In this document: in pieces, positions 7,575-9,778 of the stretch
Numbering within the stretch: position 1 is the stretch's first letter
How the letters are laid out: the number at the start of each line of letters is the position of its first letter
From: a virus
Direction: 5' to 3' (one strand)
DNA length: 30,543 nt
IMG/VR virus record: IMGVR_UViG_3300046167_000268
Span: 1-30,543 of that record
Made by a program: the position numbers and the translations under genes
Notes under the pieces: model-generated
Told to the model about the DNA's origin: nothing
The model's database searches: none
What the model saw: the letters and a program-made list of their open reading frames with translations, nothing else

Positions 7575-7752
7575 AGCACACCTTGATAAAGGTGAATCAA
7601 TCACAGCCATTGAAGCATTGAATATGTTTCAGTGCTTTAGATTAGCAGCACGTATGCATGACCTTAAAGAAAGTGGCTATCCTTTTATGAAAGAAATGGT
7701 TAAGCTAGATAACGGCAGAGCTATCGCTCAGTACACAAAGGTAAACCTCTAG
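7549..7752 (+). CDS. Helix-turn-helix protein (HTH_39-like)
   Basis: This is a 67-aa protein: a first helix (MIKAHLDKGESITAIEALN), then MFQCFRLAARMHDLKESGYP and a beta wing (GRAIAQYTKVNL). The S-I-T-x-x-E-A-L-x-x-F-x-C-x-R-L-A-A-R-x-x-D-L pattern matches the small winged HTH family HTH_39 as I recall it, common in phages next to replication genes. AGGAG precedes the ATG. Its TAG stop lies inside the 13-bp hairpin at 7742-7777. It is probably a DNA-binding regulator or excision-like accessory protein. Confidence 0.7.
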   Translation: MENQTKMIKAHLDKGESITAIEALNMFQCFRLAARMHDLKESGYPFMKEMVKLDNGRAIAQYTKVNL

Positions 7753-7777
7753 TACGGCTCATGATACTAGAGGTTTA
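7742..7777 (+). terminator. Perfect 13-bp hairpin with embedded stop codon
   Basis: TAAACCTCTAGTA (7742-7754) is perfectly complementary to TACTAGAGGTTTA (7765-7777), with a 10-nt loop. The TAG of the preceding gene is in the left arm. No U-run follows, so it is a poor Rho-independent terminator. Processing or mRNA stabilisation just upstream of the replication initiator is more likely. Confidence 0.55.
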
Positions 7778-7811: not shown

Positions 7812-8483
7812 ATGTATGCAGACATATTACTACGAGATGTAATTGATTGGCAAGTAAACAATCCTAATGCTAAATATATTTTGATTGTGCTTGCACGTTA
7901 CACAGATTTAAATGGTGAGTGCTTCCCAAGCATACCAACTTTAGTCAAGACTACTGGCCTCAGTAGAAGTACAGTCATACGTGCTATCAACTGGTGCATA
8001 GATAATAATTATATAACAAGAAAGTCTGGACGCACTGGCATAGCTAGTGTGTATAGATTCAAACATTTAATGGAGGATGATATGAAGAAGACCAGTGTCA
8101 CACAGACACCCCAAGTTATATCTAATGTAATAGATATTAATAGTAATAGTAATACTACTTGGAGTGTCACACAGACACCCCCCTTCGATGCGTTCTGGTC
8201 AGTGTACCCACGCAAGATAGCAAAGGGACACGCTCGCAAGGCATTCGATAAAGCATGTAAGATTGCAGATCCCATTGCAATTCTTACTGCTGTTAAAAAA
8301 TTTGCTGATGCTACTCAAGGCACAGACAAACAGTTTATCCCTCACCCTACCACATGGCTCAATGGTGAGAGATGGGAAGACGACATCGAGGACGTTGCAC
8401 CTAGCAACAGAACCAACACAGATTTCTTAGATGAAATCATCAATGATATGTCGCATAAAAAATTAGCCATAGATAAGGAGTAA
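7812..8483 (+). CDS. Replication initiation protein (lambda O / DnaD-like)
   Basis: This 223-aa protein has an N-terminal winged HTH (about residues 20-75; FPSIPTLVKTTGLSRSTVIR, then AINWCIDNNYITR), the HTH_36 type seen in phage and plasmid initiators. A low-complexity linker (about 90-124) follows. The C-terminal domain reads FDAFWSVYPRKIAKGHARKA and has a FIPHPTTWLNGERWEDD motif at about 175-191, typical of phage replication protein O/DnaD-type proteins. The gene contains two iteron-like repeats in its linker, as lambda O contains ori. It probably binds them and recruits the host helicase. The ATG at 7812 has a GGAAAG site. Confidence 0.8.
   Translation: MYADILLRDVIDWQVNNPNAKYILIVLARYTDLNGECFPSIPTLVKTTGLSRSTVIRAINWCIDNNYITRKSGRTGIASVYRFKHLMEDDMKKTSVTQTPQVISNVIDINSNSNTTWSVTQTPPFDAFWSVYPRKIAKGHARKAFDKACKIADPIAILTAVKKFADATQGTDKQFIPHPTTWLNGERWEDDIEDVAPSNRTNTDFLDEIINDMSHKKLAIDKE
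8094..8181 (+). repeat. ori: Two iterons with an AT-rich spacer: candidate replication origin
   Basis: AGTGTCACACAGACACCCC occurs identically at 8094-8112 and 8163-8181. Each copy is itself an interrupted palindrome (GTGTC-ACACA-GACAC). Between them lies a strongly AT-rich stretch with TAGTAATAG-like repeats. The layout mimics lambda ori: palindromic iterons plus an AT-rich unwinding region inside the initiator gene, between its two domains. The repeats encode SVTQTP twice, so a protein-level explanation must also be considered. Confidence 0.6.
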
Positions 8484-8999: not shown

Positions 9000-9119
9000 A
9001 TGGAACGTAAAGGATTTATTGGCGGCAGTGACGCTGTCAAAATAATGAACGGCAACTGGTATGAACTCTGGCAGATCAAGACAGGTCGTGTCGAGCCAGA
9101 AGATTTGTCACACAAGTAG
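9000..9119 (+). CDS. YqaJ-type exonuclease, N-terminal part (frameshifted)
   Basis: A 39-aa frame with an excellent AGAGGAG site reads MERKGFIGGSDAVKIMNGNW, then YELWQIKTGRVEPEDLSHK, and stops at TAG. GGSDA...NWYELWQIKTGR is the N-terminal signature of YqaJ-like viral recombinases (lambda Exo fold), which resect dsDNA 5' to 3' for single-strand annealing. The missing remainder is encoded from about 9116 in the -1 frame, where VAVQMGILSEDMN continues the family pattern. One lost base near 9115-9116 would explain it (an ancestral DN/HN-x-AVQMG motif). Confidence 0.75.
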   Translation: MERKGFIGGSDAVKIMNGNWYELWQIKTGRVEPEDLSHK

Positions 9120-9127
9120 CAGTACAG

Positions 9128-9778
9128 ATGGGCATACTATCAGAGGACATGAACCTCGGTTGGTTTGAAAGAGAGTACAGCAAAAAAATATTAGAGAAGC
9201 AAGACAAGTATACACGCACACACAATGGCGTGCCGTATGTGGGTACGCTTGATGGTGTGCTAGAAGATACCAACGACATTGTTGAGGCCAAGCATACGTT
9301 TGCACACAATACATTAGACAAAGTGTGTGACTACTACATGGCGCAGGTGCAGCTGTATCTATGGCTATCCAATATGGATGGTGCATACATGTCAGTATTC
9401 TTTGGTAACAACAGATGGGAATGTGCATACGTTAAGAAGCATGACCCATACATAAGTGTAGTGCTTGATGCTTGCACAGATTTCTGGGCGCACGTTGAGA
9501 GTGACGATGAACCTATCGGACACGACCAACCAATCGCATCACCTAAGAATCTAGTACCTGTAGATGATATGATTAAACGTGACGCTAGTTCGGACAATCA
9601 TTTCACATACCTAGCACAAGAATACCTAGAGTTTGAACCTGCAGCTAAGTCATTCGAGTCAGCCAAGAAAGATCTAAAGGCTATAGTTGCCGACAATGAA
9701 CGTGAGGTATACTCAGATCTATTAACCATACGCCGTGATAAACGTGGCGCATTACGCATTAGCAAGAGGAGTAAGTAA
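9128..9778 (+). CDS. YqaJ-type exonuclease, C-terminal part (frameshifted)
   Basis: This 216-aa continuation of the preceding fragment contains the catalytic PD-(D/E)XK residues: D42 in GTLDGVLE and E53-x-K55 in IVEAKHT. YYMAQVQLYLWLSN follows, the Q-containing helix of the lambda-exonuclease/YqaJ fold. The ATG at 9128 has no ribosome-binding site, and the real homologous start lies upstream in the other frame, so this ORF is unlikely to be made alone. It could be expressed by a -1 frameshift, or the gene may be inactive or the read in error. Its TAA overlaps the next ATG by one base. Together with the Rad52-like protein it forms a recombination pair. Confidence 0.8.
   Translation: MGILSEDMNLGWFEREYSKKILEKQDKYTRTHNGVPYVGTLDGVLEDTNDIVEAKHTFAHNTLDKVCDYYMAQVQLYLWLSNMDGAYMSVFFGNNRWECAYVKKHDPYISVVLDACTDFWAHVESDDEPIGHDQPIASPKNLVPVDDMIKRDASSDNHFTYLAQEYLEFEPAAKSFESAKKDLKAIVADNEREVYSDLLTIRRDKRGALRISKRSK

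Follow-up and report, generated by a model that had tools for sequence, protein, structure and literature searches.

Background

Studies of replication origins that lie inside the initiator gene have been limited to few replicons, among them lambda and pSK41. In lambda, the origin is located in gene O (as it also is in the Stx phages P27 and 933W), with the sites in the middle of the initiator gene, the same position as in the locus described here, which belongs to a stretch of marine phage DNA of 30,543 nucleotides (positions 1 to 30,543 of IMG/VR record IMGVR_UViG_3300046167_000268; hereinafter, the window denotes this whole stretch). The lambda iteron, CCCTC-AAAAC-GAGGG, is an interrupted palindrome with the 5-N5-5 geometry that is common to the sites in the window, and in both cases, an AT-rich tract adjoins the sites. 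However, the lambda origin contains four iterons in tandem, spaced by 20-24 bp, and its AT-rich tract is on one side of the array, whereas the window has two iterons 69 bp apart that face each other across the AT-rich tract; the array of four or more tandem iterons that defines a lambda-type origin is not present in the window. Two lambda iterons together with the AT-rich tract make up the minimal unit, which is sufficient for unwinding in vitro (PMC7466680).

In pSK41 and pTZ2162, which are staphylococcal RepA_N replicons, the Rep boxes are central in the rep gene, the linker that they encode is dispensable, and the N-domain binds semi-palindromic iterons (PMC5703833, PMC7145576). The pSK41-type replicons have four boxes, in contrast to the two head-to-head sites of the window, and no RepA_N domain was detected in the window initiator among Pfam matches up to E = 0.1. 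Vibrio phage 1.061, Pseudomonas phage JBD68, Bordetella phage PHB09 and Arthrobacter phage Kuleana encode initiators with the same type of N-domain (HTH_36/PHROG 270) and carry an array at the same position within the gene, but differ from the window in having GTGAC or GTGCA arms, a tandem arrangement with spacing of mostly about 22 bp, and other C-terminal domains. The retrieved records of these phages contain no origin annotation at the array.

An initiator gene with a pair of palindromic iterons

The gene at positions 7812-8483 (plus strand; 223 amino acids) matches PHROG 270, 'replication initiation protein' (E = 2.6 × 10−39), over residues 8-200, i.e. most of the protein, and Pfam HTH_36 (E = 1.8 × 10−12; 47 bits against a cut-off of 25). 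By these profile matches, the product is a phage replication initiator of the PHROG 270/HTH_36 type. The initial annotation, made from the letters of the window, had described a lambda-O/DnaD-like protein; the initiator with a helix-turn-helix domain stands, in the form of HTH_36, whereas the DnaD match falls under the Pfam cut-off and the assignment to the lambda O family is not borne out. The lambda O domain TIGR01610 matches lambda O itself at 5 × 10−39 but not the window initiator, and hhalign comparison of the lambda O family with this initiator gave no domain match, placing the protein, as judged by sequence, outside that family.

The AlphaFold2 model comprises a winged-helix DNA-binding domain (residues 1-88, positions 7812-8075, plus strand), with helices at residues 2-12, 18-29, 41-48 and 52-64 and wing strands at residues 68-71 and 80-83, followed by a linker predicted to be disordered (residues 88-121, pLDDT <50) and a C-terminal helical part; confidence is high for the winged helix (about residues 2-83) and weaker for the C-terminal part. 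A Foldseek search against the PDB yielded only generic winged helices (AspA, TubR), none with E ≤ 0.001. The C-terminal domain (FDAFW...HPTTWLNGERW, residues 125-223, positions 8184-8480, plus strand) matches other phage initiators and primosomal proteins and is presumed to be the partner of the helicase or helicase loader. The initiators of two contigs with GTGTC iterons, L233 and L189, have the same type of N-domain as the window and C-terminal domains quite different from that encoded at 8184-8480, as if the DNA-binding domain and the iterons moved as a unit while the C-terminal domain was swapped.

A 19-bp repeat, AGTGTCACACAGACACCCC, is found in two exact copies, at 8094-8112 and 8163-8181 (plus strand), 69 bp from start to start; no further copies with up to three mismatches were found in the window, and 100 dinucleotide shuffles yielded none. 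The core of both iterons, GTGTCACACAGACAC (positions 8095-8109 and 8164-8178), is the interrupted palindrome GTGTC-ACACA-GACAC, the arms of which are kept in relatives. Exact GTGTC-N5-GACAC occurs in the window at these two sites only. The two iterons are located between the predicted DNA-binding and C-terminal parts of the initiator. All these features, namely, the identical repeat and its spacing, the interrupted palindrome, and the position between the two domains, had been noticed in the initial annotation and were recovered here.

Several features of the surrounding DNA were observed. A perfect 13-bp inverted repeat, at 7742-7777, lies between a small HTH_39 gene and the initiator gene; a hairpin with a different sequence is kept at this position in some relatives (e.g. 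L020 and L034), which suggests that a structure, for instance a terminator or a processing site, is conserved there. The downstream exonuclease gene (RecE/YqaJ type, 9001-9778) lacks one base near position 9116 that is present in its aligned relatives and appears to be split in this contig, probably because of an error in sequencing or assembly. L049 (FZLS01000129.1), a contig that encodes a 98% identical initiator, is found inside a Rhodobacteraceae metagenome bin and either hints at the host or is a binned phage contig.

Palindrome arrays in other phage initiator genes

In 14 related contigs (26-53 kb), GTGTC-N5-GACAC is present in 2 or 4 copies each, always in a single cluster, and the reversed control pattern does not occur in the same contigs. 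When IMG/VR was scanned for two GTGTC-N5-GACAC palindromes 50-80 bp apart, using no protein information, at least 120 stretches were identified, and most of those listed fall inside an open reading frame (ORF) that matches initiators. Among the loci newly found with pairs 17-29 bp apart, 64 of 85 were initiator-like by profile. In tandem arrays, the most frequent spacing between adjacent sites is 21-23 bp, close to two turns of the helix. Altogether, an ORF with the winged helix spans the pair in 286 of 323 GTGTC loci, a set that is not deduplicated and includes some loci fetched by protein. In a sample of 299 bacterial genomes from one phylum, no GTGTC pair was detected.

Other arms occupy the same position in the gene: those of Vibrio phage 1.061 and Psychrobacter Y8A are GTGAC-type, and those of JBD68 and PHB09 are GTGCA-type. 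Scans for GTGAC and GTGCA pairs recovered at least 120 stretches each, compared to 5 for the control arm GCTGT; 2 of these 5 (apparently one gene) are also within an initiator-like ORF, and GCTGT probably represents a further arm class and, hence, is no pure negative control. Among the matches listed, an ORF with the same winged helix spans the pair in 54 of the 121 GTGAC loci and 86 of the 120 GTGCA loci; the remaining 67 and 34, respectively, have no such ORF across the pair. When the first named homologues were subjected to a general palindrome test, the output was noise for several, and some named homologues showed no clear array; direct reading of the linkers revealed clear arrays in some. 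In L255, L290, L293 and L294, three GTGTC palindromes 23 bp apart are found outside the initiator-like ORF, about 45 bp from its end; thus, the position within the gene is not universal.

Covariation of the predicted recognition helix with the iteron arm

To relate the protein to its sites, we compared 101 initiator clusters (one representative per 60%-identity cluster). Two columns of the alignment, 53 and 57, both in the predicted recognition helix (residues 52-64, positions 7965-8003, plus strand; the window has S53 at 7968-7970 and R57 at 7980-7982), covary with the arm far above all others (z = 32 and 18 vs. label shuffles) and constitute candidate specificity residues. Residue 57 is Arg in all 64 clusters with an arm ending in C and in none of the 37 with an arm ending in A (Fisher p = 1.9 × 10−28); in clusters made at 35% identity, independently of the arm and with the helix masked, the split persists (19/0 vs. 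0/10). Residue 53 is Ser in 28 of the 39 GTGTC clusters and never in the other arm classes, where it is always Arg; with Arg also present in 8 of the 39 GTGTC clusters, the residue-53 rule is not strict.

Residue 57 differs in every one of the 26 disjoint nearest cross-arm pairs, and it is the only column among residues 45-66 with this property. In the natural pair L546 (N57, GTGCA) vs. L408 (R57, GTGAC), the N-domains are 81% identical outside the recognition helix. On the helix-free N-domain tree, which is poorly resolved, the arm classes are not clustered (44 changes vs. 46.0 in shuffles), so that shared descent is unlikely to explain the link between residues and arm; with only 2 well-supported branches or pairs in this tree, the independent-pairs sign test and formal phylogenetic contrasts have no power. 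Three phages that were read afterwards agree with the pattern: in Arthrobacter Kuleana (R53, N57), there are five GTGCA sites with a spacing of mostly 22 bp; GTGAC half-sites accompany R53 and R57 in Leuconostoc LLC-1; and the arms of Pseudomonas U2, a phage close to JBD68, are GTGCA. The link of residues 53 and 57 to the bases of the arm is strong, if indirect, evidence that the initiator binds the palindromes.

Binding of this kind could also serve transcription: the palindromes could be operators for control of the gene by the initiator or by another regulator, with no origin at the locus. Palindromic operators are common and the protein contains a winged helix, but no promoter-like match was found near the sites, which are located about 280-370 bp into the gene; in the window's clade, they are always accompanied by the AT-rich stretch; and arrays that reach 8 sites, with a spacing of about 22 bp, are more origin-like than operator-like. 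For an unrelated regulator, covariation with the initiator's own helix would be hard to accommodate. We consider an operator-only role unlikely; the sites may serve autoregulation on top of origin function.

The AT-rich stretch and the inward AAG tags

The DNA between the iterons (8110-8163), a candidate DNA unwinding element, is about 76% AT, ranks among the least stable 0.14% of the 54-bp stretches of the window and encodes most of the predicted disordered linker, in keeping with the AT-richness and the interdomain location originally claimed. Throughout the window's clade, the number of sites is only two; their distance is 63-75 bp, the AT content between them is 68-77%, and the 60 bp downstream of the pair are not AT-rich. 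Just inside both iterons, the motif NNNAAG is present in inverted orientation in 25 of 25 distinct spacers of the clade, although the encoded residues vary; in the window, the AAG tag of iteron 1 is at 8113-8115 on the plus strand and that of iteron 2 at 8158-8160 on the minus strand (CTT on the plus strand). Tandem-type relatives have a similar flank, CCNAA, after the last iteron and none before the first, which suggests that the tag could indicate on which side of an iteron the unwinding element lies.

The locus had been proposed to be a minimal two-iteron version of the lambda design. The location inside the gene, the palindromic sites and the AT-rich tract are retained from that proposal, but the window's clade has a head-to-head iteron pair around an AT-rich stretch rather than a shortened tandem array. 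Descent of this clade from a four-iteron ancestor by loss of the two inner iterons is attractive but unproven: in L233, site 1 and site 4 are 68 bp apart, compared to 69 bp between the two sites of the window, yet inward tags on both sides are not expected from simple loss.

The stretch might instead act as a hairpin in RNA or single-stranded DNA, that is, as a terminator, an attenuator or a single-strand origin, and the single strand indeed folds far better than shuffled sequences (z = −5.0). This fold is attributable to the inverted-repeat flanks inside the iterons, where NNNAAG is invariant on both sides while other flank positions often fail to pair; such non-pairing changes favour a DNA motif over a hairpin. 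Furthermore, the arms are unchanged throughout the relatives selected by protein, most of the distant relatives have tandem palindromes without such a dyad, and covariation with a helix that binds double-stranded DNA would be left unexplained. Thus, a hairpin function appears very unlikely.

Conservation of the iterons at the DNA level

Both palindromes were found in every complete relative that was identified from its protein, at identities down to about 50%, and in every distinct gene of a second, protein-only set that reached down to 51-55% identity; a homologue that keeps the protein and lacks the palindromes, which the initial annotation had named as a refuting observation, was not found in the clade. 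The peptides encoded at the palindromes vary (SVTQTP, GVSVTH, GVSETP, GVNETP, SVRETL), and so do the five spacer bases. Among more distant relatives, which have from 2 to 6 palindromes about 22 bp apart, the palindrome is found in all three codon phases.

In a check that the initial annotation had suggested, the repeats keep identity at synonymous sites beyond the requirements of the peptide. In relatives with 65-70% protein identity, about half of the comparable synonymous codons differ elsewhere in the gene; for the whole linker, the number is 1-2 of 24-26, and in the iterons there is no difference (p = 1 × 10−6 and 2 × 10−4). No synonymous change was observed in the iterons of L034, L038 or L041, the last of these with only about 47% protein identity. 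The persistence of the palindromes through changes of spacer, peptide and coding phase indicates that selection acts on the DNA. Hence the repeats are most improbable as a mere by-product of a repeated linker peptide, SVTQTP, needed by the protein: in the window's clade, both copies are in one coding phase and encode similar peptides, but relatives encode VSVTH, VSETP, VRETL or SVPQTP at the same palindromes, distant ones use all three phases (KCLTDT, VSHRH, GVTQTP), synonymous sites are frozen, and the linker is predicted to be disordered.

Proposed mechanism and implications

The stretch very probably is the replication origin of the phage, located inside the initiator gene and acting as follows. 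A dimer of the initiator would bind each GTGTC-N5-GACAC palindrome through the N-terminal winged helix; the two bound sites, pointed at each other by the NNNAAG tags, would flank the AT-rich stretch and help its opening; and the C-terminal domain would then recruit the replicative helicase. The helicase is probably that of the host, given that no polymerase or helicase family matches were detected among the window proteins scanned. Dimeric binding, strand opening, helicase loading and origin activity are what we infer from the sequence comparisons. Cooperation between sites of this type is not obvious because the pair is 63-75 bp apart, compared to 20-24 bp in lambda. Cumulative GC skew, suggested earlier as a check, follows gene orientation and the direction of transcription in the window and is uninformative with respect to the origin.

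It also seems likely, with somewhat less assurance than the origin itself, that initiators of a widespread phage family and their in-gene palindromes are connected by a simple recognition code (Arg at residue 57 with C at base 5 of the arm, otherwise A; Ser at residue 53 with T at base 4, and Arg mostly with A or C) and that, in the window's clade, the array was rearranged to two facing, AAG-tagged iterons. No description of a recognition code for phage initiators was found in the open-access literature. What appears to be new here is that scans for palindromes alone often land in winged-helix genes and that residues 53 and 57 follow the arm. We infer that, in the window's clade, the in-gene iteron origin takes a variant form and comes with a recognition code.

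The head-to-head layout raises the question of whether two facing sites open DNA in the way tandem arrays do. Natural pairs such as L546 and L408 are ready-made specificity switches. If the code is true, origins and their specificity would be readable from sequence in a large phage family, given that uncultured phages yield the site along with the residues that apparently read it.
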